Of a DNA stretch of 64,000 nt, positions 1 through 64,000 are shown piece after piece; the stretch's first letter is position 1, and each line of letters opens with the position of its first letter. The stretch covers positions 310,001 through 374,000 of the forward strand of contig JAQGEQ010000326.1 of the NCBI GenBank assembly GCA_034620365.1, in the 5' to 3' direction. The DNA is from Pegea sp. RAD2-039 (taxonomy: Eukaryota > Chordata > Thaliacea > Salpida > Salpidae). Position numbers and translations under genes: made by a program. The notes beneath the pieces are model-generated. The model ran no database searches, was not told the DNA's origin, and saw nothing but the letters and a program-made list of their open reading frames with translations.

Positions 1-3000
1 ATAATAGGAACTAAAAATACAAACAAATCTGACGTATAAGTAATGAAACAAAACGGTTCAAAAACGTTCTAGCAATTTAAAGCAGTTTCATGGATTAGAT
101 TAAAATGGACTGGTAATAAATTAGCATTTATTAGTTCTCCTGTTTCACGTATAAAGTTACAAAATAAGGAAAGCGATTTAAACTGTTTTAGCAACTCAAT
201 ATGTTAATTTTGAATATGTTAATTTCAAAAAACCAATCGGGTAAGTTATGAACTAGTACTATTGGAGATGATTTTATTTCATATAGTAGATTATTTATAA
301 TAGTTTTAGAATATCAACATTCAAAAGGTTAATAAATCTTAAACTAAAAGTATAATTTTAAATTATCCTTATTAGTTAGTTCTTGGTAACCTGAAACTAA
401 TTTAAAGTTAGTGATTACTTTTCTCATTAAGATAAAAGCAGATTTCTATTTTATCTAGAAAATATAGGTTACTTGTAGAAATTTTATTTTATTTTTATGT
501 AATCATCGATCTCTAACAACCAGATAACCACAAACATTAAACGGAATACACCGCATATAAGAACTAAATTTTCTTTCACTACAATTGTCACAATTCGTCC
601 CGATGTAATCTGTACTATATTGTGTTTCTTGCTGTAAAGTTCAGATTATAGCGGGTCAAATAATCATAACATTCAATTGCAAGCTTTGCTTAGGCTGTCA
701 GTTTGATTCTCTTACAGCCAGATCACCAGCAATCATGTGACAACAAAGCAAGTCTATGATACCGGTTGTGTTGTCAGCTTTTTATGTGGCTAACTCACAT
801 TATGAATTTTATAGCAAAGTTGTTATAAAGGGGATGTTTAATTAACAAAACATTAGTTTTCTATTTCAACCATTTTCAAATGAGATTGTTTCAACAAATA
901 CTGATGACATAATTCAGTTAGTTAGGGGTTGTTTAATTGTTGACTAATTGTATAGATTGTAAACTTATTTTAGCTTAAATTTAACTTAATTGTAAACTAA
1001 ATTTTGCTTTATTTAAAAAGTATTCAAAATATGAAGCACATTTCTTTTAAGTTTTATTTTTTATTTAAAACTGTGAGGATAAAATCTTATAAGAAAGCTA
1101 TAAGATAGCAGATTCATTTTCAAAATAACTGAAGATAATTGATTTGAAAACACCTTAAAAAACAGTGTGAAAAAACTTGCGCTTGTCAATATATATTTTC
1201 AACCATTATCAAATGAGATTGTTTCAACAAATACTGATGACATAATTCAGTTAGTTAGGAGTTATTTAAATGTTAAATGATTGTAAAAATGAAGGGTTAT
1301 TGAAGGACTTTTATAAACATTCAAAACTATTTAAAAATAATAAACTAAATTTAAATAAAAAAAAAGTTAATTGATATCCACTTAATTGTTAACTGGTTTC
1401 AGTGATTATTTTTCTAATAATACTTTTCTAATTCATTAGTAAAGGTCTATTTTATTAGAAAAACATCTTCACTGTTTAAAATTTACTTTAAAATTTCTCC
1501 TAACACATCTCGATTTCAAGTCCACTAATATAATTTCATTTTCAAAGCTTTTAAAATGTAGATTATCATTGAATTACATTTATGTAATATGTTAATGACT
1601 ACAAATTAAAAATATACAGTTTGTTTATTAAACAATTTGACTACAGAAAACGATAAACCGTCAAAAAAGCTAAAAAATGCAAAAAAAAAAATCTTTAATA
1701 AAATTAATCGATAGATTATGTCTAGAACGTAATTATATGTAAATTCTAAGCTTTTTTTAGAATTTTAAGGTATCATTTATTACTCAAAATAAAATCCTAA
1801 ATTTGTTGTTTTATATTACGTAATCTTTTTAATTAAAATGTTTGTTTGAGAAAACTAATTAAAGTGTTAAAGTGTTCTTAATTACAAAAAATCTATCAGT
1901 CTAATAGTTTTTTGTCTACAATATTTCAAACCATCTTATATGTTTATATTAATTTAACTTTATTGTATAATTGTATTAATGTGAAAATTTAGTCTAGAAA
2001 ATTTCTAGTAATTGACTTCTCTCAGTAGCTAAAGAAAGTTATTGTGAGTCAAAATTTGGTGTAATAAATTGCTATTACATTTGTAATAATATATATGATT
2101 ATTGTTTGCAGTTAAAATGTTTATTTTTATAAACATTATGATTTTTGGCTAAGATATCGTGTGGATAGATGTGTTAAATCAACTTTTCGTTCATCTAATA
2201 AAATTTCCAGTTTTCTAATATTGTAAACAATAAACTGAATTATTTGTACAAAATATTTTTTATGAATTAAATTCTACATAATGGTTTTTTACGTCATCCA
2301 CAAACTTGTGCTAATTATTAAAAACCATATTTTAAAGATAAACTAAAAGATTTTTCAAAAAATTCGGTGAATTTGTAGATTGCATAATTAAAAGACAACG
2401 GCAAAGTAAAGTTTCTAGATGTTTTGGTTTTATCTTGTTTGCTGAAAGTAATTCAGTTGAAAAAGTATTTGTGTTTAGATATACTGAAAGTAATTTAAGA
2501 AAAATGAAATATTATTAAATCGAAATTAACAACTTATAATAATACTATTTTAAAATAGTTTAAACTGAACTTATTGGCAAACATTAAGCAAATTTTTCTT
2601 CTTCTGACGTAATAACTGGCTTGCTAACAAAGTTTAAGAAAATTATATAATTATTTCAATTTTTCATCAACTCAATCTTTTAAGTTAGTTTTAACCATTC
2701 GGGTAATAAACAGCTTAGTGCTATATCAGAAGGGATTAATTATGATGCAATATGATTTATCAAAATATATTTATTTCTAAAATGAAATGATAAACAAAAT
2801 AATATTAGGTTTGAAAAAAGAGATTTTAAGAATTAAAACTTTATTTACTTGAAATTTTTTTGAGTATCTACTAAAAACTGAAGTTTCAATTAAAAAAATA
2901 AAACAGATTGCAAAGAGTAATAAGTTGCATAAATTTAAAATGTTTTAAACGGATTTCTAAACAAAAACTAAAATTTATCAGCAGTTTGCACAACATTGAT

Positions 3001-3431
3001 TAACTAAGAGATTAAAATCTAAATACAGAAGCTTTTTGGTAATAAATAAAGGACATTAAAAAACTTGTGGGTTTAAGAAAACTTGGAATAAGATAAAAAC
3101 AAGTTATAGTTCGTTTACAAAAAAAATACGAACCGCCGATCACAAACAGTAAAAAATAACTTTTCAAATCAGCATCATTTACTGTAACATACACCATTTG
3201 ATCAATAAAACAAATATTAATTAAATAAAAACAACTCAAACTGAAAAAACAATTTTAAAAATTATATTTTTAAACCCTCTGATCTTCACAAAGCTATTTA
3301 TTTCTTCTTATAAATTGCAAGTAAACTTTGACCAGCAAAATGATCTCACTTTTTCTGAGAAACATGAATCATTTCATGGCGTAATCGACATGAATTTCAA
3401 CTAAATTTTTTTTCACAATTAAAACATATTC
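1..3431 (-). repeat. Type A 3' flank, copy 1 (downstream of G1)
   Basis: This long noncoding stretch lies downstream of the minus-strand gene G1. The same sequence is present inverted at about 11.1-14.2 kb after G2, in direct orientation at about 61.0-64.0 kb, and shortened at about 49.8-51.2 kb after G7. A more complex block at about 510-790 is especially well kept between copies. Two ~63-bp direct repeats sit at about 863-930 and 1197-1259. I see no convincing gene; a 75-codon open frame on the minus strand at 3012-3239 is not kept in the other copies. Confidence 0.8.
863..1259. repeat. Pair of ~63-bp direct repeats flanking ~270 bp
   Basis: Two near-identical ~63-bp sequences, beginning TTTCAACCATT, occur at about 863-930 and 1197-1259 in the same orientation. 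The copy of this flank at 61.8-62.2 kb has the same pair, but the inverted copy at 13.27-13.34 kb has only one. Its outer flanks match the left of repeat 1 and the right of repeat 2. That is the pattern expected from recombination between the repeats, deleting one repeat and the spacer. Confidence 0.75.
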
Positions 3432-4812
3432 CTATGGTTTCTCGCCGGTATGAGTCCTTTCATGAGTTACAAGATTGGAATTATGACTAAATTTCTTTTC
3501 ACAAACAATACATTCATATGGCTTCTCACCAGTATGAGTTCTTTCATGAATTAAAAGACTGGAATTACGTGCAAATTTTCTTTCACAAACTATACATTCA
3601 AATGGCTTCTCACCAGTATGAGTTCTTTCATGAATTAAAAGACTGGAATTAAGTGCAAATTTTCTTTCACAAACTATAAATTCATATGGCTTCTCACCAG
3701 TATGAGTTCTTTCATGAATTAAAAGACTGGAATTACGTGCAAATTTTCTTTCACAAACTATACATTCAAATGGCTTCTCACCAGTATGAGTTCTTTCATG
3801 AATTAAAAGACTGGAATTAAGTGCAAATTTTCTTTCACAAACTATACATTCATATGGCTTCTCACCAGTATGAGTTCTTTCATGAAATAAAAGACTGGAA
3901 TTACGTGCAAATTTTCTTTCACAAACTATACATTCAAATGGCTTCTCACCAGTATGAGTTCTTTCATGATTTAAAAGAATAGAATTATCTGCAAATTTTC
4001 TTTCACAAACAATACATTCATAAGGCTTCTCACCAGTATGAGTTTTTTCATGACTTGACAAATGGGCTTTCTGACTAAACTTTCTTTCACAAACAATACA
4101 TTCATATGGCTTCTCACCAGTATGAGTTCTTTCATGAATTAAAAGACTGGAATTACGTGCAAATTTTCTTTCACAAACTATGCATTCATATGGCTTCTCA
4201 CCAGTATGAGTTCTTTCATGAGTTAAAAGACTAGATCTATGACTAAATGTTCTTTCACAAACAATGCATTCATATGGCTTCTCACCAGTATGAGTTCTTT
4301 CATGGCTTAACAAATGTGCGTTTTGACTAAACTTCTTTTCACAAACAATGCATTCATATGGCTTCTCACCACTATGAGTTCTTTCATGACATAACAAATG
4401 GGTTTTTTGACTAAATTTTCTTTCACAAACTTTACATTCATATGGCTTCTCACCAGTATGAGTTCTTTCATGATAAATAAGCTGAGATTTGCATTTATAT
4501 TTCCTGTTACAGTCTAAGCATTCATATTTGATTTTGAAATTAGATGATAGTTTATTTTCTTCATTATTTTCTTTCCCTTTGAATGCTTTCCTATCACTGT
4601 TAGTGTCTTTAAAGGGGAAACTTGTAGTTGTTGGAATTTCTTTAGTATTATTTAAACTAGTTTGATCAGCATGACGTTTATGCAAGCTATGTACTCCACC
4701 AGAAGTGTTTACCAAATTTGTCTCTTCCGCAGTTTTATTATTAAAACTTTTCTCATCATCATCTGATGACAGTTCTCTTTCGGTCAAATTTGCTCTCTTC
4801 TATCATATTCAT
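3432..4812 (-). pseudogene. G1: C2H2 zinc-finger gene, N-terminal frameshift
   Basis: This is a member of the cluster's ZNF family. The ATG homologous to the other copies lies at 4810-4812. Compared with them, about 2 bp are missing in the codons for the KRK motif (around 4780), so translation from that ATG stops within about 17 codons. The downstream frame stays open for some 450 codons but contains no methionine, so it could only be used through non-AUG initiation, frameshifting or splicing from elsewhere. It encodes the standard N-terminal region, the leader finger (CLDC) and 12 more CX2CX12HX3H fingers. One finger has lost its first zinc cysteine (YEFIVC; Phe codon at 3678-3680). The frame ends at a TAG in the linker after finger 13, as in G2 and G7. 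The array itself has no stops, so the break is either recent or a sequencing error. Confidence 0.85.
3434..3940 (-). repeat. Two-finger (168-bp) internal repeat in G1
   Basis: Fingers 8 to 12 of G1 alternate between ARNSSLL and ALNSSLL helices. The linkers alternate in step: HTGEKPF before ARNSS fingers and HTGEKPY before ALNSS fingers. The repeating unit is therefore a pair of fingers (168 bp), which points to a recent duplication of a dimer rather than of single fingers. Confidence 0.75.
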
Positions 4813-7800
4813 TTTCTAGTTATTAGGCTAGATTTAAAGAAAAAAAAATTAAATCTAAAATGTCTCTACGAAATCATAAAAAAAAATTGTTTTTACATAA
4901 TATAAAATATTTTAACTACAAACATTGATTTTTAAGTGATATAATATTTTCATATGATATACAAAGTTTGTTTACCAATGCTAACAAACAAGCTTAATTA
5001 ATGTTTTTTAAAAGTCTAAACCAGAAACTTATCATGTTCTATGTACATAATGCTAAATAAAAAGAACTTTCGATTAACAAATTTTTGTAAACTTTTGCAA
5101 GTATTTTCACAAATTGTTGGTTATAGTTCAATATTTAGACACCAAAATATCCACTTCTATAATAAATAAATAGAAGAACATTTTTCTATGGAAAAGGCAT
5201 TATTGCGTTACATGTAGCAGTTACGAGGGCAATAAACGTTTGTTTGTGAAAATGATAACATGAGTTCAGAAACTAAAAATTAAGAAGTATGTAAGAAATT
5301 TAAAATTTAATAGAGTTCAAAATAGAACAAAAAGTTACTCCTTAAGTATAAAGATTTTATGAAAATGTCTTTAACAATTTTAGTTATTTATCTCAAATTG
5401 AAGTCCTCTTAATCTGAAGTCCTTTTATGATGTTACATTAATAGAGACCAACGAGTATTTTAAAATCATATCCAACTAATTGCAATTATTTTTAATTACA
5501 AAAATACAAAAGTAAGAGACTCTTTTAATCAAAAGTCAAGACTTGATAGAGACTTATTAGGATTAGACGATATTTAATTTAGACACGATAAGCTCAACTT
5601 TAAAAACATACATATTTAAATATCATGAAAATGTATACAGAATTTATAACTGACAATCCTACATAATCTAACCAAAATTTAATCTAACCATTTATGTCAA
5701 AACGGAATACCTGCAAAAACTTCACAAAAATCAATACTAGCAATTGTCTAATAAAATTAAGCAAGCTACATAAGTTTACAAAACATCAAAAATCATTCAT
5801 GATCATCTAACACCAATCGTTTTTCTATATTGGCATTAAGTTTACAAGTAGCTAAAGAGGCAAAAAAGAGCAACAAACCTTATAATTTATAAAAAATTAT
5901 GATAATATATATAACACAAATGACTTACCAAACATATAAACTTTTGGTCAAAGTCTTCTTAAGAATATTTATATATGGTTGATTTACAAAAGTGATTTAT
6001 TAATCTTCAAAACAGTTGAGAGAAATTATAATTTTGAAAGCAATGTTAGAAGTATAAATTTGTTTGTATGTAAATTATGATGACAGAATCAAAGTTCTAG
6101 AAGCTTCTGCTGTTTGGGTTTTGTAGCTTGTCGATTATTATTTTGATGCTTTTACTGCTTTGCTATTAATATTTGTTGTGCATTAAAATTTTTCAGCAAT
6201 ATTGAGTAACTTCAAATCTAAACTTCTTACGGGGCTATGTTAGTGCAGCTTGCATTCTTTTTTTGTTTATTATAAAGCTACATAAAAGTTTTAATTTTCT
6301 AGAAAGTTCTTTTAAACATTAATCATTTAAACTTTTTTTGTAGAAACTAAAGAAAAACATTTTTTATCCTACAAAAATTTAATCCAGATTAAGTTCTAAA
6401 TGAAAAAAAAACTTTCTTAAAATTGATACTTTTACAGTTCGATTTTTGTTTGAGGTCGATAATTGTTATTAGAAAGCTCTTAAAAATATTGTAGAAAAAC
6501 ATTTAACATTGTAATAAAAAAATTATTTTCTTGCATTTCCTAATGACTTATTTATATTTCTTTTATTTTTCAGATTTTATTTGATTTATTCATTTATTAA
6601 ACTTTGAATGTTACATTTTTTTCTTTCTTAATTTCCAATTTGATTAAGTATAAAATGTGTTGTTTGTGAGAATGTGGTTTAGCAAGAGGTGCTCTTTTCA
6701 GACACCCTCCTTTTCGTTTATTGCAATAAATAAAGAAAAATTATGATTAAAGCATCTTTTATTTAGTATCGTTAGATAATAAAAAACATTTCATTACTTG
6801 AGTCCAAGTCAAAATTGTTATGGAGTTTTGTTCTTTTTGCTGTTACGAGCTGTCGAATTTTCTGGTAAACTAAAAAAAATAAATGATTACAAGCTGTTAG
6901 TTGTTAAACGATTATATTTGAAATGTTTTAGTTTTTCATTTTATTCAATTTATTAATTCATGCTGTTACTAATTGTTTGGTTATTTTGAAATACTTACCA
7001 TGTCATTTATTAGACTTTCATAAAAATCCAATTACCAAAAAACGTATCAAAACGTAAAGTTATTTTAAAATTTCAAATAAAGATTTTGTTTATAAATTAA
7101 GAACCTTAAAAAGCAATATCTACAAATAAATTGATGTGAAATGAGGTAAAGAAAACAATCAATAAAACTTTTCTCACAAAATTTAATTAATTTATTTTTA
7201 TACAACCTTTTTGTAAACCACAAACTCAAAACTTAGAATAACCCATTTTAACCCCCAAATAACGTGAAGATACTGTGTAAAGCGGTTACTGCAACCAGGG
7301 AGAAAGTCACAGTATCTTCATGTGGCCCCATTTGCAACATCAATTTAAACATTTAAAAAAGATCTTTGTCTGCTAGCCTTGCTCAACGCTTAGAAAGAGT
7401 TGAATGAAGTCTTTCTCTGATTGAATCAATCCACTGAAATGAATTGTATCAGAAACTCTAATCTGTGTTTAGAAAATTGACTAAAGTTATTTTTTAGACA
7501 CTAGACATTGATAAAGCAAAATTAATTTATATATCTGTTTATTGAGATGTTGTATTCCAGTTACTTTGGCTGCTATATTCTCACTATTTATTACTTATTA
7601 ACGATTATGTAATTATTTATCTTGTAAATATATTTATTATAATTTTTGATCAAATTTATCAATTTAAGAATAAAAACTAAATAGTTTTTAAAAAGCAAAT
7701 AAATAATTCATCTAATTTTTAAAACTTTAGATCTTAACCCAGTCACTTCTTCATGTTTTTAAATACAATAGCAACCTAATATAAAGTTAAATATGAAAAA

Positions 7801-9870
7801 CTCAATTAAAGAAAATCAATAATTTAATACCCTTGTAGTTTATAAGAATTGTATAACAGATAAGTCAATAAAAACTAACAAAATTTAATTCAAATCTAAT
7901 AATTTGCCAAGAGTTTTTAGCTAAAAATTTTATTTTGAATAGTATTGAAAATCTGATATTAAAACTCCATATCTGAAAACTTTCATATTTAGCTCTATTG
8001 AATTGGTAAAAGGAAACTAATTACGAAGATAACTAACAAAACACTACTAACAAACCACTGTCGACTACAGAATGAAATAGGTATATAGAGTAATAGGGGA
8101 TGAAACAATTACGTAGATGGTAAAATATTCTACTATCACTACTAACAATAACAACACTACTTTTCCACTTATTGTTTGTATCTTTGTGAATTAAAATATA
8201 CTTCTTACTGCTATTCTTGAAATTCTATCTTAACACTTTACATAATCATTTCTTTGTAGTTGGTACATAGTTGTTATATCACTTTAATATTCTTTTTTGT
8301 GAAATCAAGTTATTCTAGCAATTAATTACTGTATTCAGTCAAACACACCCTCGAAATCATCCGTAAATAATAATACCTTTTAGAATAGTTTTTTAGAGGT
8401 TTTATAAAAAAAAACTTTAAATGATTAATATCTATAAGTACTTCTTGAAATTTATTCTTTGTTTGTAACTTTGAAAAATATAAAATACACAAAATAATGT
8501 AAACTGAATGAACAAATACTCTTACAAAGTTTGGATTTTGCAGTTACTTGATAATAATCAAAAGATGTATTGTACTATAATATTGAGAACAAAGCAGTAA
8601 AAGCATCAAAATGTTAATCAGCAAACAACAAAATCATAATAGCAAAAGCTTCTATAACTTTGATAACCTCATCAGAATTTGCGTGCAAAGAATGTTTTGT
8701 TTCTAACACTGCTTTCAAAATTATTATTTCTCCAAACTGTTTTGAACATTAGAAGATCACTTTTATAATTCAAACATATATATATATATTCTTAAGAAGA
8801 CTTTGACCAAAAGTTATTATGTTTGGTAACGTCATTGTGTTATATATATTATCATAATTTTTTTTTAAATTATAAGGTTTTGTTGCTCTCTTTTGTCTCT
8901 TTTAGTTACTTGTAAACTTAATGTCAATAGAGAAAAATGATTGTTGTTAGATGATCATGAATGATTTTCGATGTTTTGTAAACTTATGTAGCTTGCTTAA
9001 TTTTATAGGACAATTGTTAGTATTGATTTTTGGGAAGTATTTGCAGGTATAGCGTTTAGACATGAACTTTTTTAAAATAAAAATTTGTAGTAAATGTTTA
9101 TAACAGTCAAAATATTAGACTTTAAGTCAATCTTTGTTCGTTTATATTGGCTTGTAAGTTATAAATTCAGTATACATTTCCATGATATTTAAATATCTAT
9201 TTTTTGAGGTTGAGCTTATCGTTTCTAAATTAAATCTAATGTATATTCAATAAGTCAATATTAAGTCTTGACTTTTGATTAGAATATTCTCTAACTATAA
9301 CTAAAATATAATATATAAACATAACTAAGTATATATGTAATTAAAAATAACTAGAAATAGTTTGATATATTTTTTGATTAATCGTTGCTCACTATTAATG
9401 TAAATTCATACAAGTGAACTCTATTGAGGACTTTACACTTGAATATGAGATAAATAACTGAAGATTAAAACCTGTAAAATTAATTTTATCTTTTTGTTGA
9501 TCTATTTTAAACACTGTTAAATCTTATAATTATTAAATTCTTTTTAATTTTTAGTTTCTGAACTCATGTTATCATTTTCACAAGCAAACGTGTTTTGCCC
9601 TCGTAACTGCTACATGTAAAACAATATAGCCTTTTCTATAGAATAATTTTTTTCTATTTATTTATTATAGAACTGGATATTTTGTTGTCAAAATATTGAA
9701 CTATAACCAACAATTTTTGAAAATACTTGCAAAAGTTTACAAAAAATTGTTCTTCAAACTCGTTTTAAATAAAAATATGTATATCGAACATCATAAGTTT
9801 CTGGCTAAGACTTTTTCAAAACATGATATAAACTTGATTGTTATCATTAGTAAACAAACTTTGTTCATCA
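4813..9870. repeat. Head-to-head spacer G1/G2 with long inverted-repeat arms
   Basis: Sequence upstream of G1 (about 4.8-6.25 kb) is found inverted upstream of G2 (about 8.5-9.9 kb). Shared landmarks include a GCCCTCGTAAC block (5216-5230 and 9597-9610) and an AAGAAGACTTTGACC block (about 5950 and 8790). Together with the two genes and the type A flanks, this makes a palindrome with arms of roughly 5.5-6 kb around a centre near 7.4 kb. The central part holds remnants resembling the upstream region of the C subfamily (about 7.78-8.45 kb) and a GC-richer conserved block at 7.24-7.44 kb. I see no gene in this spacer. Confidence 0.75.
7240..7445. repeat. GC-richer conserved block with a hairpin
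   Basis: This block stands out from the AT-rich spacer. Related copies are at about 32.49-32.67 and 36.91-37.12 kb. Only this copy has the 13-base TGAAGATACTGTG (from about 7264) followed by its exact reverse complement ending at about 7321, which could fold into a hairpin with a loop of about 30 bases. No tRNA boxes or transposon coding sequence were recognised, so its nature is unknown. Confidence 0.5.
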
Positions 9871-9949
9871 CATAAAAATAATATATCACTTAAAACTAAA
9901 ATTATTTTTTATGCACATTTTAAAATTAAAAAAGTTTTATTTTCTTCAG
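9871..9949 (+). promoter_or_regulatory. TATA-like box and splice-acceptor-like site of G2
   Basis: CATAAAAATAATATATCAC starts 94 bp before the G2 ATG; other copies have TATAAAA at the same place. A pyrimidine tract ending TTTTCTTCAG closes 15 nt before the ATG. Both are kept across the family, so they are likely functional. A TATA box at this distance leaves only about 60 nt of leader, so the CAG could be a cis 3' splice site or a trans-splicing acceptor. Confidence 0.5.
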
Positions 9950-9964
9950 CCTTTTAACTTGAAA

Positions 9965-11095
9965 ATGAACTTGATACAAGGCAGCAACTTTGCACGAAAA
10001 AGAAAACTGTCATCAGATGATGATGAAAAAAGTTTTAATAAGAAAAATGCAGAAACGAAAATTTTGGTAAACACTTCTTGTGGAATATATAACTTGTATA
10101 AAAGTCATGCTGATCAAAATAGTTTAAATAATACTAAAGAAATTCCAACAACTACAAGTTTCCTTTATAAAGAGACTAACAGCGATAAAAAAGCATTCAA
10201 AGGGAAAGAATATAATGAAGAAAACAAACAATCATCTAATTTCAAAATCAAATATGAATGCTTAGACTGTAACAAGAAATTTAAATTCAAATCTCAGCTT
10301 GTTTATCATGAAAGAACTCATACTGGTGAGAAGCCATATGAATGCATTGTTTGTGAAAGAAAATTTAGTCATAGATCTAGTCTTCTAAGTCATGAAAGAA
10401 CTCATACTGGTGAAAAGCCATATGAATGTACAGTTTGTGAAAGAAAATATTGTCATCGATCTAGACTTTTAAATCATGAAAGAACTCATACTGGTGAGAA
10501 GCCATATGAATGTATTGTTTGTGAAAGAAAATTTGCACAAAAATCTAATCTTTCAATTCATGAAAGAACTCATACTGGCGAGAAGCCGTATGAATGTATA
10601 GTTTGTGAAAAGAAGTTTAGTCAAAACACCAATTTGTTAAGTCATGAAAGAACTCATACTGGTGAGAAACCATATGAATGTCTTGTTTGTGAAAGAAAAT
10701 TTGCACAAAAATCTAGTCTTTCAAGTCATGAAAGAATTCATACTGGCGAGAAACCATATGAATGTATTCTTTGTGAAAAGAAGTTTAGTCAAAAGTCTAG
10801 TCTTCATTGTCATGAAAAAACCCATACAGGTGAGAAGCCATATGAATGCATTGTTTGTGAAAGAAAATTTGGTCATAAATCTAGTTTTCTATGTCATGAA
10901 AGAACCCATACTGGTGAGAAGCCATATGAATGTATTGTTTGCGGAAGAAAATTTACTCATATTTCCAATCTTTTAACTCATGAAAGAACTCATACTGGTG
11001 AGAAGCCATATGAATGTGCTGTTTGTGGAAGACGTTTTGCTCGAAATTCCACTCTTGTAACTCATGAAAGGACTCATACCGGCGAGAAACCATAG
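9965..11095 (+). CDS. G2: C2H2 zinc-finger protein, 10 fingers, intact
   Basis: Predicted 376-residue nuclear DNA-binding protein. Residues 1 to about 90 are low-complexity: a basic RKRK stretch near residue 12 (candidate nuclear localisation signal), an acidic SSDDDEKS patch, then Ser/Thr/Lys/Asn-rich sequence. The leader finger CLDC...H follows, then nine CX2CX12HX3H fingers joined by TGEKP linkers. The start is the ATG (MNLIQ) shared by all fuller family members. The frame does extend 18 codons upstream, but that extension is broken in G7 and G9 and crosses a splice-acceptor-like CAG. The protein ends at a TAG replacing the Tyr codon after TGEKP, with a decayed finger behind it. Fingers 4-6 are nearly the same as fingers 8-10 of G7. 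It is head-to-head with G1. DNA binding is inferred from the fold; the target is unknown. Confidence 0.85.
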   Translation: MNLIQGSNFARKRKLSSDDDEKSFNKKNAETKILVNTSCGIYNLYKSHADQNSLNNTKEIPTTTSFLYKETNSDKKAFKGKEYNEENKQSSNFKIKYECLDCNKKFKFKSQLVYHERTHTGEKPYECIVCERKFSHRSSLLSHERTHTGEKPYECTVCERKYCHRSRLLNHERTHTGEKPYECIVCERKFAQKSNLSIHERTHTGEKPYECIVCEKKFSQNTNLLSHERTHTGEKPYECLVCERKFAQKSSLSSHERIHTGEKPYECILCEKKFSQKSSLHCHEKTHTGEKPYECIVCERKFGHKSSFLCHERTHTGEKPYECIVCGRKFTHISNLLTHERTHTGEKPYECAVCGRRFARNSTLVTHERTHTGEKP

Positions 11096-11190: not shown

Positions 11191-14100
11191 CTGGTAAAAG
11201 TTTACTCACCATTTATAAGAATGAATAATTAGCTTTGTGAAAATCAGAGGGTTTAAAAATATAATTTTTAAAATTGTTTTTTCAGTTTGAGTTGTTTTTT
11301 TTTCATCAATATTTTTTTTATTGATCAAATGGTGTATGTTACAGTAAATGATAATTATTTGAAACGTTTTCTATTTTTATTATTTGTGATTGGCGGTTTG
11401 TATTTTTATTTGTAAACGAACTATATCTTATTTCGTTCTTTGTCCAAGTTTAGTTGTTTAGTTTTCAAACCCTCAAGTTTTTTTTTGTCTCTTATTTATT
11501 ACCAAAAAGCTTCTGTATTTAAATTTTAAGTTCTTAGTTAATCAATGCTGTGCAAACTGCTGATAGATTTTAGTTTTAACAAATCCGTTTAAAACTTTTT
11601 AAATTTCTGCAACTTATTACTCTTCACAATTTTTTTTTTATTTATTTAATTGAAAATTCAGTTTTTAGTAGATACTCAAAATAATTTCAAGAAAATAAAG
11701 TTTCATTCTTAAAATCTTTTTTTTCAAACCTAATGCTATTTTGTTTATCATTTCATTTTAGAAATAAATAGTTTTAATAAATCATATTGCATCATAATTA
11801 ATCCCTTCTGCTATAGCACTTAGACGTTTATTACCCGAATGGTTAAAACTAACTTGAAAGATTGAGTTGATGAAAAATTGAAATAATTATCTAATTTTCT
11901 TAAACTTTGTTAGCAAGCCAGTTATTACGTCAGAAAAAGAAATACTTGCTTAACGTTTGCCAGTAGGTTCAGTTTAAACTATTTTATAATAGTATTATTT
12001 TAAGTTGTCAATTTAGATTTAATAATATTCTTTTTTTCTTAAATTACTTTCAGTATATCTAAACACAATTACTTTTTCAACTGAATTACTTTCAGCAAAC
12101 AAGATAAAACCAAAACATCTAGAAACTTTACTTTGCCGTTGTCTTTTAATTATGCAATCTACAAATTCACCGAACTTCTTGAGAAAATCTTTTAGTTTAT
12201 CTTTAAAATATTTTTTTTAATAATCAGCACAAGTTTGTGGATGACGTAAAAAACCATTATGTAGAATTTAATTCATAAAAAATATTTTGTACTTCAGTTT
12301 ATTGTTTACAATATTAGAAAACTGGAAATTTTATTAGATGAACGAAAAGTTGATTTAACACATCTATCCACACGATATCTTAGCCAAAAATCATAATGTT
12401 TATAAAAATAAACATTTTAACTGCAAACAATAATCATATATATTATTACAAATGTAATAGCAATTTATTACACCAAATTTTGACTCACAATAACTTTCTT
12501 TAGCTACTGAGAGAAGTCAATTACTAGAAATTTTCTAGACTAAATTTTCACATTAATACAATTATACAATAAAGTTAAATTAATATAAACATATAAGATG
12601 GTTTGAAATATTGTAGACAAAAAACTATTAGACTGATAGATTTTTTGTAATTAAGAACACTTTAACACTTTAATTAGTTTTCTCAAACAAACATTTTAAT
12701 TAAAAAGATTACGTAATATAAAACAACAAATTTAGGATTTTATTTTGAGTAATAAATGATACCTTAAAATTCTAAAAAAAGCTTAGAATTTACATATAAT
12801 TACGTTCTAGACATAATCTATCGATTAAATTTATTAAAGATTTTTTTTTGGCATTTTTTAGCTTTTTTGACGGTTTATCGTTTTCTGTAGTCAAATTGTT
12901 TAATAAACAAACTGTATATTTTTAATTTGTAGTCATTAACATATTACATAAATGTAATTCAATGATAATCTACATTTTAAAAGCTTTGAAAATGAAATTA
13001 TATTAGTGGACTTGAAATCGAGATGTCTTAGGAGAAATTTTAAAGTAAATTTTAAACAGTCAAGATGTTTTTCTAATAAAATAGACCTTTATTAATGAAT
13101 TAGAAAAGTATTATTAGAAAAATAATCACTGAAACCAGTTAACAATTAAGTGGATATCAATTAACTTTTTTTTATTTAAATTTAGTTTATTATTTTTAAA
13201 TAGTTTTAAATGTTTATAAAAGTCCTTCAATAACCCTTCATTTTTACAATCATTTAACATTTAAATAACTCCTAACTAACTGAATTATGTCATCAGTATT
13301 TGTTGAAACAATCTCATTTGAAAATGGTTGAAATAGAAAACTAATGTTTTGTTAATTAAACATCCCCTTTATAACAACTTTGCCATGAAATTCATAATAT
13401 GAGTTAGCCGCATAAAAAGCTGACAACACAACCGGTATCATAGACTTGCTTTGTTGTCACATGATTGCTGGTGATCTGGCTGTAAGAGAATCAAACTGAC
13501 AGCCTAAGCAAAGCTTGCAATCGAAAATTATGAATATTTGACCCGCTATAATCTGAACTTTACAGCAAGAAACACAATATAGTACAGATTACATCGGGAC
13601 GAATTGTGACAATTGTAGTGAAAGAAAATTTAGTTGTTATATGCGGTGTATTCCGTTTAATGTTTGTGGTTATCTGGTTGTTAGAGATCGATGATTACAT
13701 AAAAATAAAATCAAATTTCTACAAGTAACCTATATTTTCTAGATAAAATTGAAATTTGGTTTTATCTTAATAAGGAAAGTAATTACTAACTTTAAATTAG
13801 TTTCAGGTTACCAAGAACTAACTAATAAGGATAATTTAAAATTATATTTTTAGTTTAAGATTTATTAACCTTTTGAATGTTGATATTCTAAAACTATTAT
13901 AAATAATCTACTATATGAAATAAAATCATCTCCAATAGTACTAGTTCATAACTTACCCGATTGGTTTTTTGAAATTAACATATTCAAAATTAACATATTG
14001 AGTTGCTAAAACAGTTTAAATTGCTTTCCTTATTTTGTAACTTTATACGTGAAACAGGAGAACTAATAAATGCTAATTTGTTACCAGTCCATTTTAATCT

Positions 14101-14230
14101 AATCGATGAAATTGCTTTAAATTGCTAGAATATTTATGAACCGCTTTTTTTTCATTACTTAAACGTCAGATTTGTTTGTATTTTCAGTTCTTACGTTTTC
14201 ACACATATATTTCTTCACAAAATAATATAG
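11191..14230 (+). repeat. Type A 3' flank, copy 2 (inverted relative to copy 1)
   Basis: Noncoding flank downstream of G2, matching copy 1 (1-3431) read on the opposite strand. It lacks one of the two 63-bp repeats and the ~270 bp between them (single repeat at about 13270-13335). The more complex block kept in all full copies is at about 13.33-13.70 kb. It meets the type B flank of G3 near 14.2-14.3 kb. No gene seen. Confidence 0.8.
13570..13690 (+). other. Possible very old zinc-finger relic in type A flank
   Basis: One plus-strand frame reads CDNCSERKFSC followed by more Cys residues and a stop. The DNA around GTGAAAGAAAATTTAGT matches the finger consensus of the active genes over about 20 bases. 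There is no proper C2H2 spacing, so this could be a coincidence in a conserved block. The same block lies at about 560-640 (inverted) and 61.47-61.56 kb. Confidence 0.25.
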
Positions 14231-17351: not shown

Positions 17352-17366
17352 TTTCAAGTTAATAGG

Positions 17367-20260: not shown

Positions 20261-20279
20261 TAAACTATCTATTGTTTCA

Positions 20280-20430
20280 TTAACATTTTATTTAAATGTT
20301 TAATGAAAAGCCATATGAAAATATTGTTTGTGAAAGAAAGTTTAGTCGAAATTCAAATCGTTGCCATGAAAGAATTTGCAAAAAAAAGTTAAAAAAGAGT
20401 TAAAAAAAAGATCTGATGATCTGTAAATGT
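20280..20430 (+). pseudogene. C-subfamily zinc-finger remnant
   Basis: A single finger is still readable: [19 protein letters not shown] followed by CHERICKKK. The first cysteine is lost (Asn), and the N-terminal region and other fingers are gone. The finger and the upstream sequence match the C remnant at 37.47-37.84 kb. It is a dead relic lying between G3 and G4. Confidence 0.65.
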
Positions 20431-20459
20431 TCTTTTGGAAAACCCGTATATTATGTAAA

Positions 20460-31790: not shown

Positions 31791-34080
<2,290 letters not shown>

Positions 34081-37440: not shown

Positions 37441-37466
37441 ACATAATATACGGGTTTTCCAAAAAA

Positions 37467-48683: not shown

Positions 48684-48698
48684 CCTATTTACTTGAAA

Positions 48699-49829
48699 AT
48701 GAACTTAATACAAGGCAGCAAATTTGCACGAAAAAGAAAACTGTCATCAGATGATGATAAAAAAAGTTTTAATAATAAAACTGCAGAAAAGAAAATTTTT
48801 GTAAACAATTCTGTTGGAGTACATAGCTTCTATAAAAGTCATGCTGATGAAAATAGTTTAAATAAGACTAAAGAAATTCCAGCAACTACATTTCTCCCTT
48901 ATAAAGAGACTAACAGCAATAAAAAAGCATTCAAAGGGAAAGAAAATGATGAAGAAAACAAACAATCATCTAATTTCAAAATCAAATATGAATGCTTAGA
49001 CTGTAACAAGAAATTTAAATTCAAATCTCAGCTTGTTTATCATGAAAGAACTCATACTGGTGAGAAGCCTTATGAATGTATAGTTTGTGAAAGAAAGTTT
49101 AGTCGAAAACACCATTTGTTAGGTCATGAGAGAACTCATAATGGCGAGAAGCCATATAAATGTGTTGTTTGTGAAAGAAAATTTGCACAAAGATCTAGTC
49201 TATTACGCCATGAAAGAACTCATACTGGTAAGAAACCATATGAATGTATTGTTTGTGAAAGAAAATTTGCACTTAACTCCAGTCTTTTAAGTCATGAAAG
49301 AACTCATACTGGTGAGAAGCCATATGAATGTATAGTTTGTGAAAGAAAATTTAGTCAAAAATCTAGTCTTTTAAGTCATGAAAGAACTCATACTGGTGAA
49401 AAGCCATATGAATGTACTGTTTGTGAAAGAAAATTTTGTCATCGATCTAGTCTTTTATGTCATGAAAGAACTCATACTGGTGAGAAGCCATATGAATGTA
49501 TAGTTTGTGAAAGAAAATTTAATCAAAATTCCAGTCTTTTAAGTCATGAAAGAACTCATACTGGTGAGAAGCCATATGAATGTATTGTTTGTGAAAGAAA
49601 ATTTGCACAAAAATCTAATCTTTCAATTCATGAAAGAACTCATACTGGCGAGAAGCCGTATGAATGTATAGTTTGTGAAAAGAAGTTTAGTCAAAACACC
49701 AATTTGTTAAGTCATGAAAGAACTCATACTGGTGAGAAACCATATGAATGTCTTGTTTGTGAAAGAAAATTTGCACAAAAATCTAGTCTTTCAAGTCATG
49801 AAAGAATTCATACTGGCGAGAAACCATAG
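48699..49829 (+). CDS. G7: C2H2 zinc-finger protein, 10 fingers, mosaic, intact
   Basis: Predicted 376-residue nuclear DNA-binding protein (MNLIQGSKFARKRK). The N-terminal region, leader finger and fingers 2-4 (SRKHHLL with the rare HNGEKP linker, AQRSSLL, ALNSSLL) match G6. Fingers 8-10 (AQKSNLS, SQNTNLL, AQKSSLS with the rare HERIH) match fingers 4-6 of G2 almost base for base. It then jumps straight to the type A end, with TGEKP followed by TAG. The gene is therefore a join of a G6-like front and a G2-like back, and by coincidence it has the same length as G2. Fingers 5-7 (SQKSS, CHRSS, NQNSS) lie between. The full frame is open, so it may be active. It has a type A 3' flank. Confidence 0.87.
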   Translation: MNLIQGSKFARKRKLSSDDDKKSFNNKTAEKKIFVNNSVGVHSFYKSHADENSLNKTKEIPATTFLPYKETNSNKKAFKGKENDEENKQSSNFKIKYECLDCNKKFKFKSQLVYHERTHTGEKPYECIVCERKFSRKHHLLGHERTHNGEKPYKCVVCERKFAQRSSLLRHERTHTGKKPYECIVCERKFALNSSLLSHERTHTGEKPYECIVCERKFSQKSSLLSHERTHTGEKPYECTVCERKFCHRSSLLCHERTHTGEKPYECIVCERKFNQNSSLLSHERTHTGEKPYECIVCERKFAQKSNLSIHERTHTGEKPYECIVCEKKFSQNTNLLSHERTHTGEKPYECLVCERKFAQKSSLSSHERIHTGEKP

Positions 49830-53420: not shown

Positions 53421-55264
53421 TAAACAATTGGTTGATATTATAAAATTTTTATATATAATATATTATATGAAATAAAATAATCTCCATTAATACTAGTCCA
53501 TAACTTACCCGATTGATCTTTTGAAATTAACATCTTCAGAATTAACATATTGAGTTGCTAAAACAGTTTGAATTGCTTTCCTTATTTTATAACTTTATAC
53601 GTAAGACAGGAGAACTAACAAATGCTAATTTGTTACCAGTCCATTTTAATCTAATAGATAAAATTGCTTTAAATTGCTAGAACGTTTTTGAACCGTTTTG
53701 TTTCATTACTTATACGTCAGATTTATACGTGTATTTTTGTTCTTATTTCTTGACACATATATTTCAAAGTAATAATTGAGAATTGATAAATCTTCACAAA
53801 AAAAAATTAAAAAAACAACGGTACAAAATGTGCGATGTGTATCTCAAAAATCTATAAAATAATAAAACTTAAAGAGTATTTCAAATTTGAGGCAAATACT
53901 TTTATTAAATTTTTTTAACTTAAAAATACTAACTCATATTGTAAAGTTTTATACAAAGATTAAAAATTGTTTAAAATTCACTTTTAGGAAGGTATCATCC
54001 TTAAGACATTTTGGCTGTTTTGTTGGTATTAGCAACTTTAAATACTTATTTTTATTATTTAAAGTTTACATTTAATGGTAAATTCTTCATTCCAAACAAA
54101 TTTTATTTCATAAGACTTTTTCAGGAGATAATTTCGACTAGGGAATACTACTCTCTTTATAGTTTAAATCAGTTACTGTATCGATGGTTTGGTTAGGTGT
54201 TTTGGTTTGTTGTGGTTTGTTTTGATAATTACAGTTCCATTTAAATTAACAACTTAATGGTTGGTTCGATAATTAGAATTACCAAGAGCTGAAATGGTTA
54301 TACAGTTATATATCTAACGTAGAAGTATTAAACCGAATAATTCAAAACATTCTAGCAACTTGCTTACAAGAATATTAATCGTAAAGTTTAAAAATGATAG
54401 AGTAGTAACCAATAAGAAAATATTAGTTTTTCTGCCGTACTTCTGAAGTTACAAAACTATAAAGTATTTTAAACTATTTAAAAAAGTCAATCTGTTAATT
54501 TTGATCTAACTATTTGGGTAAGAAAAAGTCAAGTTTTATAGAAGATGATTTATTTATGATGATGTAATTGTCGATAATATAAAATGTTAAAAAACTTCTT
54601 TTTCTAAACTTATAGTATGAAGAGGATAACAACGTTTATTGGTTTTATCTCCAACAAGCATTTTAAGAAAGGAAATAGATTTTAAGATTTCAAGAATTAG
54701 TTTTCTCATTAAAATTGCAATAATAACTAAAAACTGTCATTTTACTTTCATAATAAAAACAAAACACAAAATTAATCAGTTTTACAAACATATAAGGATT
54801 TAACGAATCTTTAGAGAGTAACTAAAAAGTAACCACAATTTCGATTGCCTTTATCAACTAAAAAAATTTAATTACTTTCAAAAACTTGTTGAAAAATAAT
54901 AGAAGATGTTAACAAATACTTAAAATACAAACTTTGAAAATTAAGGAATACAAACAAATTTTTTAATAGTTTACAAAAAAGATTTACGAAAATAACAACA
55001 TAAGAATACCAACTTTAGTTTAAAGTAAAAAATTGAATGTAAAACCTTTATTATTAATTGTAGACCTACACTATTTCAATAATAGAGCAATCATTAAAAT
55101 AATTTATAAAAAGCATAAGTTGCAACAACCTGCCAAACAAAAAGTTATTATTTTGTTTCCTTTAAACTTAAAGATGTTTGCATAGTTAAGTTACTTATCA
55201 TTTTAAACACTTTTTCATCTTTCCATACATGAAATGCGAGTTAACAGCTACCAGCAAAAAGATT
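53421..55264 (-). repeat. Type A end and type B 3' flank of G8
   Basis: About 53.44-53.76 kb is outer type A sequence. From about 53.765 kb it is type B flank in the same orientation as after G3, with about 240 bp missing at the join compared with 14.22-14.46 kb. Small frames at 53887-54196 are not conserved in all copies. Confidence 0.7.
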
Positions 55265-55570
55265 TTAACTTTTATGATTAATATGAGTTCTTTCATGACT
55301 TACAAGATTAGATTTTTGACTAAATTTTCTCTTACAAACAAGACATTCATATGGCTTCTCACCAGTATGAGTTCTTTCATGAATTAAAATACTGGAATTA
55401 TGTGCAAATTTTCTTTCACAAACTATACATTCATATGGCTTCTCACCAGTATGAGTTCTTTCATGGCATAACAAATGGGTTTTTTGACTAAACTTCTTTT
55501 CACAAACTATACATTCATATGGTTCCTCACCAGTATGAGTTTTTTCATAAATTAAAAGATTAGAATTATG
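55265..55570 (-). pseudogene. G8: zinc-finger array fragment, 3' end only
   Basis: On the minus strand this holds the end of one finger and three complete ones (SQKTHLL, AHNSSIL, SQKSNLV), closing with HERTHINHKS and TAA. There is no leader finger, N-terminal region or start; a TAA precedes the first readable finger. One linker is TGEEP. Homology stops at about 55570, where a plus-strand C remnant begins, so the 5' part was lost in a rearrangement. The ending resembles G9 (NIHKS). It cannot make a family protein on its own. Confidence 0.8.
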
Positions 55571-57863
<2,293 letters not shown>

Positions 57864-57942: not shown

Positions 57943-57957
57943 CCTATTAACTTGAAA

Positions 57958-59172
<1,215 letters not shown>

Positions 59173-60990
59173 AATCATCTTGCTAGTAAACGTTTACTCA
59201 AAATTCAAATATGGAAAGATGAAAACATTTTTAAACTAAAAAGTAACTTAACTAAAAAGAGATCTTTGAGTTGAAAGGAAACAAAATAATAATTTTTTGT
59301 TTGGCTGGTTGTTGCAATTTATGCTTTAATAAAGCTATTTTAATGATTGCTCTATTATTGAAATTGTGTGTAAGTCTACTATAAATAATAATGGTTTTAT
59401 ATTTAATTTTTTACTTTAAACTAAAGTTGGTATTCTTATGTTGTTATTTTCGTACAGCTTTTTTGTAAACTATTGAAAAATTTTGTATTTCTTAATTTTC
59501 GAAGTTTGTATATTAAGTATTTGTTAACATCTTCTTTTATTTTTCAACAAGTTTTTGAAAGTAATTGTAATTTTTAGTTGATAAAGGCAGTCGAAATTGT
59601 GGTTACTTTTTAGTTACCCTCTGAAGATTCGTTATATCGTTATATGTTTGTAAAACTGATTATTTTTGTGTTTTGTATTTAGTATGAAAGTAAAACTACA
59701 GTTTTTAGTAATTATTGCAATTTTTATGAGAAAACTTATGTTTGAAATCTTAAAATTTATTTCCTTTCTTAAAATGCTTGTTGGAGATAAAAACAATAAT
59801 TGTTATTATCCTCTTCATACTATAAATTTAGAAAAAGAAGTTTTTTAACATTTCATATTATCGACAATTACATCATCATAAATAAATCATCTTCTATAGC
59901 ACTTGACTATTTCTTACCCAAATAGTTAGATCAAAATTAACAAATTGAATTTTTTAAATAGTTTAAATTACTTTATAATTTTGTAACCTCAGAGGAACGG
60001 CAGAAAAACTAATATTTTCTTATCGGTTACTACTCCATCATTTTTAAAACTATACGATTAATATTCTTGTAAGCAAGTTGCTAGAGTGTTTTAAACTGTT
60101 CTGTTTAATACTTTTACATCAGATATATAACTGTATCTATTTCAGCTCCTGTTAATTCTAATCTTCGAACCAAATATTATGTTGCTATTTTAAATGGAAC
60201 TCTAATTATCCAGAGAAACCACAACAAACCAAACCATCGATGCAGTAACTGATTATAACTATAAAGAGATTATTCCGTATTAGAAATAATCTAATGAAAA
60301 AGTCTTATCATATAAAATTTGTTTGGAATGAAGAATTTACCACTAAATTGTGAACTAATAAATAATAAAAATAAGTATTTAAAGTTGCTAATACCAACAA
60401 AACAGCTAAAATATCTTAAGGATGATACCTTCCAAAAAGTGAATTTTAAACAACTTTCATTCTTGGTATAAAACTTTACAATGTGAGTTATTATTTTTAA
60501 GTTAAAAAATGTAAATAAAAATATTTGCCTCAAATTTGCAATACTCTTATAAGTTATAATATTTTATAGTTTTTTGAGATACCCATTGCATTTTTTGTAC
60601 CGTTGTTTTTTGAATTTTTTTATGTGAAGATTTATCAATTCTTAATTATTACTTTAAAATCATTCATAAAACCATCAATGTAACAAATCAACATTTATCA
60701 GTACGTCTGATGTATTGAAATTAGATTAAGAAAACTAAGATATAAGAAAGAATTTAAAGAAGAAATTCATTCGATTTTATTTAGCAACTTATTCCGTTGT
60801 TCGAGATTTAAAGATGGAAAACCATCAAAAGTCACAAGCGCTCAAAAGGATCTACAGAAAAAAAAAATCTGACATTAAAATGTACAAATCCTGTATTATT
60901 TTGTGAAGAAATATATGTGTGAAAACGTAAGAACTGAAAATACAAACAAATCTGACGTTTAAGTAATGAAAAAAAAGCGGTTCATAAATA
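59173..60990 (+). repeat. Type B 3' flank of G9
   Basis: Matches the flanks of G4 and G6 directly and those of G3 and G8 in reverse. It joins the type A flank at about 60.95-61.0 kb, mirroring the junction at 14.2 kb. Short frames at 59666-59848 and 60291-60533 are not kept across copies. Confidence 0.75.
59328..59333 (+). terminator. Poly(A) signal of G9
   Basis: AATAAA 156 bp after the final stop, in the same context as in G4 and G6. Confidence 0.45.
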
Positions 60991-63900
60991 TTCTAGCAAT
61001 TTAAAGCAATTTCATCGATTAGATTAAAATGGACTGGTAACAAATTAGCATTTATTAGTTCTCCTGTTTCACGTATAAAGTTACAAAATAAGGAAAGCAA
61101 TTCAAACTGTTTTAGCAACTCAATATGTTAATTTTGAATATGTTAATTTCAAAAAACCAATCGGGTAAGTTATTAACTAGTACTATTGGAGATGATTTTA
61201 TTTCATATAGTAGATTATTTATAATAGTTTTAGAATATCAACATTCAAAAGGTTAATAAATCTTAAACTAAAAATATAATTTTAAATTATCCTTATTAGT
61301 TAGTTCTTGGTAACCTGAAACTAATTTAAAGTTAGTAATTACTTTTCTCATTAAGATAAAAGCAGATTTCTATTTTATCTAGAAAATATAGGTTACTTGT
61401 AGAAATTTGATTTTATTTTTATGTAATCATCGATCTCTAACAACCAGATAACCACAAACATTAAACGGAATACACCGCATATAACAACTAAATTTTCTTT
61501 CACTACAATTGTCACAATTCGTCCTGATGTAATCTGTACTATATTGTGTTTCTTGCTGTAAAGTTCAGATTATAGCGGGTCAAATATTCATAATTTTCAA
61601 TTGCAAGCTTTGCTTAGGCTGTCAGTTTGATTCTCTTACAGCCAGATCACCAGCAATCATGTGACAACAAAGCAAGTCTATGATACCGGTTGTGTTGTCA
61701 GCTTTTTATGCGGCTAACTCATATTATGAATTTCATGGCAAAGTTGTTATAAAGGGGATGTTTAATTAACAAAACATTAGTTTTCTATTTCAACCATTTT
61801 CAAATGAGATTGTTTCAACAAATACTGATGACATAATTCAGTTAGTTAGGGGTTGTTTAATTGCTGACTAATTGTATAGATTGTAAACTTATTTTAGCTT
61901 AAATTTAACTTAATTGTAAACTAAGTTTTGCTTTATTTACAAAGTATTCAAAATATGAAGCACATTTCTTTTAAGTTTTATTTTTTATTTAAAACTGTGA
62001 GGATAAAATCTTATAAGAAAGCTATAAGATAGCAGATTCATTTTCAAAATAACTGAAGATAATTGATTTGAAAACACCTTAAAAAACAGTGTGAAAAAAC
62101 TTGCGCTTGTCAATATATATTTTCAACCAGTATCAAATGAGATTGTTTCAACAAATACTGATGACATAATTCAGTTAGTTAGGAGTTATTTAAATGTTAA
62201 ATGATTGTAAAAATGAAGGATTATTGAAGGACTTTTATAAACATTTAAAACTATTTAAAAATAATAAACTAAATTTAAATAAAAAAAAGTTAATTGATAT
62301 CCACTTAATTGTTAACTGGTTTCAGTGATTATTTTTCTAATAATACTTTTCTAATTCATTAGTAAAGGTCTATTTTATTAGAAAAACATCTTGACTGTTT
62401 AAAATTTACTTTAAAATTTCTCCTAAGACATCTCGATTTCAAGTCCACTAATATAATTTCATTTTCAAAGCTTTTAAAATGTAGATTATCATTGAATTAC
62501 ATTTATGTAATATGTTAATGACTACAAATTAAAAATAAACAGTTTGTTTATTAAACAATTTGACTACAGAAAACGATAAACCGTCAAAAAAGCTAAAAAA
62601 TGCCAAAAAAACAAAATCTTTAATAAATTTAATCGATAGATTATGTCTAGAACGTAATTATATGTAAATTCTAAGCTTTTTTTAGAATTTTAAGGTATCA
62701 TTTATTACTCAAAATAAAATCCTAAATTTGTTGTTTTATATTACGTAATCATTTTAATTAAAATGTTTGTTTGAGAAAACTAATTAAAGTGTTAAAGTGT
62801 TCTTAATTACAAAAAATCTATCAGTCTAATAGTTTTTTGTCTACAATATTTCAAACCATCTTATATGTTTATATTAATTTAACTTTATTGTATAATTGTA
62901 TTAATGTGAAAATTTAGTCTAGAAAATTTCTAGTAATTGACTTCTCTCAGTAGCTAAAGAAAGTTATTGTGAGTCAAAATTTGGTGTAATAAATTGCTAT
63001 TACATTTGTAATAATATATATGATTATTGTTTGCAGTTAAAATGTTTATTTTTATAAACATTATGATTTTTGGCTAAGATATCGTGTGGATAGATGTGTT
63101 AAATCAACTTTTCGTTCATCTAATAAAATTTCCAGTTTTCTAATATTGTAAATAATAAACTGAAGTATTTGTACAAAATTTTTTTTATGAATTAAATTCT
63201 ACATAATGGTTTTTTACGTCATCCACAAACTTGTGCTGATTATTAAAAAAAATATTTTAAAGATAAACTAAAAGATTTTTTCAAGAAATTCGGTGAATTT
63301 GTAGATTGCATAATTAAAAGACAACGGCAAAGTAAAGTTTCTAGATGTTTTGGTTTTATCTTGTTTGCTGAAAGTAATTCAGTTGAAAAAGTAATTGTGT
63401 TTAGATATACTGAAAGTAATTTAAGAAAAAAAGAATATTATTAAATCTAAATTGACAACTTAAAATATTACTATTATAAAATAGTTTAAACTGAACTTAC
63501 AGGCAAACGTTAAGCAAGTATTTGTTTTTCTGACGTAATAACTGGCTTGCTAACAAAGTTTAAGAAAATTAGATAATTATTTCAATTTTTCATCAACTCA
63601 ATCTTTTAAGTTAGTTTTAACCATTTGGGTAATAAACGTCTAAGTGCTATAGCAGAAGGGATTAATTATGATGCAATATGATTTATCAAAAAGTATTTAT
63701 TTCTAAAATGAAATGATAAACAAAATAGCATTAGGTTTAAAAAAAGAGATTTTATGAATTAAAACTTTATTTTCTTGAAATTATTTTGAGTATCTACTAA
63801 AAACTGAAGTTTCAATTAAAAAAATAAAAACAAATTGCAAAGAGTAATAAGTTGCAGAAATTTAAAAAGTTTTTAACGGATTTCTAAACAAAAACTAAAA

Positions 63901-64000
63901 TCGATCAGCAGTTTGCACAGCATTGATTAACTAAGAACTTATAATCTAAATAAAGAAACTTTTTGATAAAAAATAAAGGAAAATAAAAAACTTGTGGGTT
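60991..64000 (-). repeat. Type A 3' flank, copy 3 (direct copy of 1-3100)
   Basis: Very close to the first 3.1 kb of the window in the same orientation, including both 63-bp direct repeats (about 61787-61853 and 62121-62184). By analogy a minus-strand type A gene like G1 should begin just beyond the right edge of the window. No gene inside this stretch. Confidence 0.8.

Follow-up and report, generated by a model that had tools for sequence, protein, structure and literature searches.

A cluster of C2H2 zinc-finger genes in Pegea

The window analysed here is a 64,000-nucleotide stretch of the salp Pegea sp. RAD2-039 (assembly GCA_034620365.1, 105.7 Mb in 387 contigs) covering positions 310001-374000 of contig JAQGEQ010000326.1, hereafter C255; positions prefixed with C255 are contig coordinates, and all others refer to the window. 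Base counts give a G+C content of 24.6%. A scan for arrays of two or more C2H2 fingers located nine arrays, on strands - + - + - + + - + from left to right. Ten open frames of at least 100 aa were found, all of them within finger genes or crossing the arrays in another frame, and no frame of this length, read with start codons, lies elsewhere in the window; an Rfam scan of the window returned no family at the gathering score. The features are listed below, with the upstream regions assigned to 5′ types X and Y, the two kinds of 3′ flank denoted F1 and F2, and the tail-to-tail joint denoted J.

3432..4799, minus strand: finger gene G1, 5′ type Y, 3′ flank F2; open frame with an unclear start
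9911..11095, plus strand: open finger gene G2, 5′ type X, 3′ flank F2
15969..17351, minus strand: open finger gene G3, 5′ type X, 3′ flank F1
21942..23240, plus strand: open finger gene G4, 5′ type Y, 3′ flank F1
32812..34080, minus strand: finger gene G5, 5′ type Y, 3′ flank neither F1 nor F2; the frame departs from the finger pattern after ten fingers
40389..41100, plus strand: broken finger gene C in two frames, 5′ type X, 3′ flank F1
48699..49829, plus strand: open finger gene G7, 5′ type X, 3′ flank F2; head-to-head partner gene gone
55265..55570, minus strand: three-finger remnant G8, F1 flank
57958..59172, plus strand: finger gene G9 with internal stops, 5′ type Y, 3′ flank F1
6400..8612, unstranded: G1/G2 centre, spacer piece 6400-7780 leading into distal X arm 7788-8612, a short variant of the spacer/X-arm joint
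18700..20470, unstranded: G3/G4 centre, distal X arm 18700-19530 leading into spacer 19560-20470, opposite in polarity to the G1/G2 centre
35712..39015, unstranded: G5/C centre, spacer 35712-38160 leading into distal X arm 38200-39015
45782..47320, unstranded: orphan centre of G7, spacer remnant 45782-46514 leading into distal X arm 46544-47320
3..3302, minus strand: 3′ flank F2 of G1, with J at 3-318
11220..15884, unstranded: tail-to-tail block, F2 of G2 11220-13880, J 13879-14193, F1 of G3 14210-15884
23320..25319, plus strand: 3′ flank F1 of G4 and J
41185..43177, plus strand: 3′ flank F1 of C and J
53431..55179, minus strand: 3′ flank F1 of G8 and J
59260..64000, unstranded: tail-to-tail block, F1 of G9 59260-60911, J 60928-61242, then F2 from 61241, which runs past the window end and flanks a minus-strand gene of a second finger subfamily at C255:375.1 kb

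The window is part of a much larger array. When the start of G4 served as query, the best 150 of 1,092 candidates were scored, and the 143 rows used included at least 108 copies above 90 bits, all of them on four contigs (C255 42, C254 33, C60 28 and C89 5), and the best row outside these contigs, again among the best 150 of 1,092 candidates, reached 75.6 bits. The many paralogues are treated here as one genomic cluster, the mutual adjacency of the four contigs being an assumption. Of their 1,752 kb, 324 kb was read including the window, made up of 294 kb from C255 plus 10 kb from each of the other three. On C255, C254 and C60 the cluster comes close to the contig ends, and assembly there was therefore probably hard. 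Retroelement-like open frames occur inside the cluster at C255:24555-27170 and C255:36056-40053, with reverse transcriptase recognized by eye and a PHD-like first frame in the latter; one such frame sits within the spacer of a head-to-head pair. In that spacer it is adjoined by a long simple repeat, C255:27238-27819, which reads as (LFIY)n.

Most of the genes have open frames. Counted from the assumed start, the frame of 26 of the 33 copies read is open for 290 aa or more and encodes at least six fingers, and G1 is open too. In total 275 fingers precede the first stop in the 33 copies, arranged in tandem with TGEKP-type linkers, and zf-C2H2 was recognized by Pfam in all three of the proteins scanned (G2, G3 and G4). 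The same scan, taken up to E = 0.1, detected neither KRAB nor ZAD in G2, G3 or G4, only zinc-finger families and weak matches overlapping them, and no other N-terminal domain rose above the Pfam cut-off in these three. A genome search for ZAD returned no match, as did the same search of control genomes; the outcome was identical for Chitin_bind_4, and COX1 likewise gave no match in a search to which 8 of 14 control genomes responded. Across the 275 fingers, variation peaks at DNA-contact positions 6, 3 and -1: the entropy is 2.22, 1.39, 2.36 and 2.76 bits at contact positions -1, 2, 3 and 6, respectively, and 0-1.93 bits at non-contact positions. A crude pN/pS, with codons holding several differences split 70/30, amounts to 0.65 at contacts, as against 0.62 for helix positions 1 and 5 and 0.34 for all other positions; since the contact value does not exceed 1, it is no demonstration of positive selection. 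The genes would encode working transcription factors.

Mirror-image layout of the window

Self-comparison of the window confirmed that long inverted matches link the arrays. The earlier note had described five head-to-head pairs with several kb of mirrored upstream sequence between the partners. G1/G2 and G3/G4 conform to this description, forming imperfect inverted repeats centred at ~7.3 and 19.6 kb. G5 and C are likewise head-to-head and mirrored, with their centre at 37.2 kb; the note had paired G5 with a gene G6 and C with G7, but with nine arrays found by the scan its G6 and C are indistinguishable. C and G7 lie on the same strand and are instead related by a direct match (91% over 3,090 columns), and of the pair that once included G7 only a spacer piece at 45.8-46.5 kb survives, with no partner gene. 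G8 and G9 mirror one another in their 3′ flank and fingers but not upstream. The extent of mirroring was also overstated, as it covers the gene and ~1.5 kb per arm, beyond which the spacer is non-mirrored. The claim that two dissimilar 3′ flank types meet tail-to-tail proved correct at ~13.9-14.2 and 60.9-61.2 kb, and a third such meeting is found at the left edge of the window.

The mirror around G1/G2 extends beyond the left edge of the window and spans 23 kb in all (C255:305.8 to 328.8 kb). In steps of 400 bp its arms are 79-100% identical, the outermost 2.8 kb at 94-100%, the middle part at 87-100% and the core at 79-86%; some outer stretches reach 97-100%. Local alignment of ten head-to-head pairs gave 78-91% identity between the joined arms. 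Fold-back artefacts give near-identical arms, and the possibility raised at the outset that the palindromes are products of assembly is accordingly unlikely. The mirror-image layout is real, and it is unusual for a finger cluster.

Two arm lineages and a shared pair spacer

Homology upstream of the genes extends for ~1.5 kb between most copies and reaches farther only within types; the X and Y labels were assigned from this reach, ahead of the tree test. In a tree of the shared 1.3 kb upstream, built from 31 of the 33 copies read (two were left out for short arms), the 12 Y copies fell on one side of a branch with support 94/98 and 15 X copies, together with four unlabelled ones, on the other; a smaller tree of C255 copies only does not resolve this branch. 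The nearest relative of one Y copy, 29p, is an X-side copy, 387p, which is itself mixed. Seven of the ten head-to-head pairs are X-Y, two are X-X and one is unclassed. With X-X in two of the nine classed pairs, some head-to-head pairs must have arisen otherwise.

Spacer sequences, each read from X to Y, were compared among eight pairs, namely all seven X-Y pairs plus 78/85. Every one of the 28 comparisons revealed shared colinear sequence, which amounted to 40-100% of the shorter spacer and to 90% or more of it in 11 cases. The G3/G4-type spacers, which include those of the C89 and C254 pairs, have in common with the G1/G2-type spacers, which include that of 122/128, only ~680 bp on the X side, or 42-43% of the shorter spacer, and the longer spacers, found in 19/29, 78/85 and G5/C, contain pieces of both types. 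The remainder of the differing spacers is read as insertions and deletions; alternatively, the Y side may have arisen a second time. Of the distal X ends, 14 of 18 enter one and the same spacer piece within 40 bp, three enter another within 8 bp, and the last enters neither piece. Among the 14, two are located in a 3′ flank that lacks a gene start.

Pairs have also been copied as a whole. G3/G4 aligns as one block, across the spacer, with the C89 pair in inverted orientation (93.3%, 6,386 columns) and with the C254 pair in direct orientation (90.2%, 7,029 columns). Consistent with such copying, head-to-head spacings fall into discrete classes, with 40 spacing pairs agreeing within 40 bp as compared to 11.8 after jittering, a count as high being reached in none of 2,000 trials. 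No such classes were detected among tail-to-tail (3 vs 4.4) or same-strand (2 vs 2.8) spacings.

Most simply, the pair would thus be one inherited unit that acquired later insertions and deletions. The two arm lineages, the colinearity of the spacers in every comparison and the copying of whole pairs with their spacer speak against the earlier view that each palindrome came from an inverting event of its own. Likewise, the separate junction that an ODIRA-like fold-back model would leave at each palindrome is not what the distal X ends display, with 14 of 18 at one joint and three at its variant. In combination, these observations indicate that the mirror layout is mostly inherited, rather than newly made at each palindrome.

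Similarity between partners

If palindromes formed by ODIRA-like fold-back, or were maintained by conversion between their arms, partner arms would be expected to be more alike than non-partner arms. The proximal upstream arms of X-Y partners are 88.3% identical on average (seven pairs), as compared to 88.6 ± 2.2% in 221 non-partner X-Y comparisons, and the partner is the nearest relative in none of the seven pairs. Only the C254 partners are raised (91.2%, second of 30). The gene conversion between palindrome arms that the earlier note had envisaged is thus not seen in the upstream arms.

Stretches of 97-100% identity between the G1 and G2 copies of F2 were considered as a candidate for conversion between mirror partners, and were rejected as not partner-specific because comparable identity extends to a third copy at C255:372 kb and, over part of the stretch, to one at 166 kb. 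A patch of ~400 alignment columns within F2 is 98-100% identical in all four copies compared (at roughly 1700-2200 and 12200-12800 of the window, as estimated from alignment columns, and at C255:372 kb and 166 kb). Beyond it, identity stays high in three copies and falls to 83-94% in the fourth. The patch may reflect conversion or may be a conserved element.

Reassortment of the 3′ flanks

The two kinds of 3′ flank do not track the two upstream types. The combinations X-F1, X-F2, Y-F1 and Y-F2 were found in 10, 8, 6 and 2 copies, respectively, in a classification that leaves two F2 copies unlabelled, omits two of the 33 copies for short flanks and rests on a tree with a warning of long branches. 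The 3′ flanks of three further Y copies stand apart, two of them starting with 220-280 bp of F2. Four of the 15 pairs of copies compared (350p/358p, 43p/136m, 343m/367p and C89_60p/326m) are related at the 5′ side and carry different 3′ flanks, and in all four the match breaks off within ~70 bp of the shorter array's end. The reassortment would be explained most simply if copies, be they direct or inverted, exchanged sequence through their finger repeats, the exact crossover points being invisible within near-identical fingers. Occurrence of all four combinations is what inverted-repeat recombination predicts for flanks of the repeat; exchange between direct copies predicts likewise.

The sequence that follows J is also variable. 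Among the 17 J ends with at least 600 bp beyond them, a common follower occurs after 12, in some cases over only ~290 bp, and F2 follows after three, all of which lie in the window or at its edge and one of which is inverted (96-98% identity). A second rare follower was found twice, in opposite senses, at 95.7%.

Just to the right of the window, at C255:375119-375478, lies the second-subfamily finger gene, the start of which is 38% identical. Its F2 flank is ~97% like the G2 probe and the flanks of G1 and G2, which suggests exchange between subfamilies through the fingers. Many genes with F2 (G1, G2, G7 and others) end in the linker HTGEKP followed immediately by a stop, and those with F1 end differently; F2 thus looks as if it was joined onto the array inside a linker.

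Orientation across the cluster

Over the whole cluster, neighbouring strong copies lie on opposite strands in 72 of 104 cases (37 head-to-head, 35 tail-to-tail and 32 same-strand), a count that passes over second-subfamily genes lying between copies. Shuffling of the strands gave 53.9 ± 5.1 alternations and reached 72 in 9 of 20,000 trials. The genome's other zinc-finger clusters were grouped by hand from a listing of the best 150 of 2,448 candidates; in them, 17 neighbours within 30 kb are on the same strand and 2 on opposite strands (Fisher p = 2e-6 against the present cluster). Opposite orientation is therefore far more frequent here than in the other clusters listed. The latter, on C8, C3, C6 and C92, are mostly one-stranded and constitute a useful internal control.

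On a tree of 26 C255 copies the strand requires 10 changes, at least six of which are forced by well-supported branches, and shuffled strands require about the same (mean 8.8). All four of the two-row clades drawn on the tree join copies on opposite strands. Same-strand relatives also occur, such as the direct copies 19m/78m (96.3% over 5,667 columns). Orientation is thus close to random among relatives on C255. As to the inverting mechanism proposed in the earlier note, inverting events are needed repeatedly, but a separate one for each head-to-head palindrome is not, since duplication of a divergent pair by itself yields alternating strands.

Discussion

The locus is an unusual form of lineage-specific zinc-finger cluster. 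The two arm lineages, the common order of their spacers, the copies of whole pairs in both orientations, the changes of strand among close relatives and the reassorted flanks are all present in the sequence as it stands, and their most probable explanation, held with reasonable but far from complete confidence, is that the main amplified unit is an old divergent X/Y paralogue pair which was copied in both orientations with exchange through the finger repeats. Most simply, one early inverted duplication of a gene with ~1.5 kb of upstream sequence would have created the pair, for which we infer a single origin. Segmental duplications would later have multiplied the pair, whole or in part, in both orientations, with insertions and deletions arising in its spacer. 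Exchange between copies through the 84-bp finger repeats could have flipped blocks and joined 5′ halves to different 3′ flanks. For the inverting step, inverted gene copies may have engaged in homologous exchange or in copying of the repair type; in these sequences an inversion that came later would look the same as an inverted duplication.

It is conceivable, if rather doubtful, that the X-Y pair was duplicated only directly and that every inverted copy goes back to a subsequent inversion by recombination, inverted duplication playing no part. Direct copies such as 19m/78m are known, duplication of a divergent pair gives alternating strands, and crossovers within the arrays would fit the reassorted flanks. 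Conversely, the occurrence of three J-F2 joints within 64 kb, one of them inverted at 96-98%, would require many well-placed inversions, as would the opposite strands of all four sister pairs drawn on the C255 tree.

A more far-reaching proposal, offered as speculation that is unlikely to be right, is that the head-to-head pair is a self-propagating unit, the arms and finger repeats of which drive copying in both orientations. If so, each event would re-pair promoters with new arrays and 3′ ends, and the cluster would be a specificity-shuffling device.

The earlier reader's view, that each palindrome was made separately by fold-back (through hairpin-capped breaks or template switching at forks, in an ODIRA-like manner), is improbable. 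Strand changes are indeed frequent among close relatives, and the 23-kb G1/G2 mirror, with its outer parts more alike than its core, fits an old inverted pair at which a newer copying event turned back. Still, the pair spacers keep one order, most distal X ends share one joint, partners are not sisters, and whole pairs recur as blocks on three contigs. Such a model moreover predicts small interrupted inverted repeats at the joints together with inverted triplications, whereas the spacers here are shared and old.

An assembly artefact from fold-back reads or mis-joined haplotypes, for which the nearby contig ends and the 97-100% stretches of the G1/G2 mirror might speak, is very improbable given that joined arms differ by 9-22% in ten pairs, that the same pair recurs on three contigs and that neighbour spacings, compared by eye, failed to line up as they would if the contigs were allelic duplicates. 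Equally far-fetched is the idea that a mobile element with long inverted termini carries the X-Y pair: the inverted arms around a spacer resemble one, and retroelement-like frames lie in the cluster, one of them in a head-to-head spacer, but all 108 rows above 90 bits are on the four contigs with nothing above 75.6 elsewhere among the best 150 of 1,092 candidates, and the window has no frame of at least 100 aa outside the finger genes.

Vertebrate KRAB-type clusters resemble the Pegea cluster in their many paralogues, TGEKP linkers, variation at contact residues and occasional broken copies. They differ in that neither KRAB nor ZAD was detected here in the three proteins scanned, the unit is a divergent pair and the strands alternate. 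Young duplicates in C. elegans are described as including adjacent gene copies in inverted orientation (PMC2728529); inverted adjacency is common to both cases, but in Pegea what has been amplified is the pair itself, and it is old. In yeast, recombination between inverted repeats is reported to have inverted the intervening DNA in half of the replication-associated recombinants (PMC8748988), as demonstrated there with an engineered barrier and here only deduced from sequence. A literature search, the scope of which excluded most subscription journals, found no publication describing this cluster.

The growth of zinc-finger families is usually attributed to unequal crossover in same-strand tandem arrays. 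The Pegea cluster shows an inverted pair as growth unit, and it would allow testing of whether inverted repeats speed the turnover of finger specificity, with the other listed clusters of the same genome as internal control.
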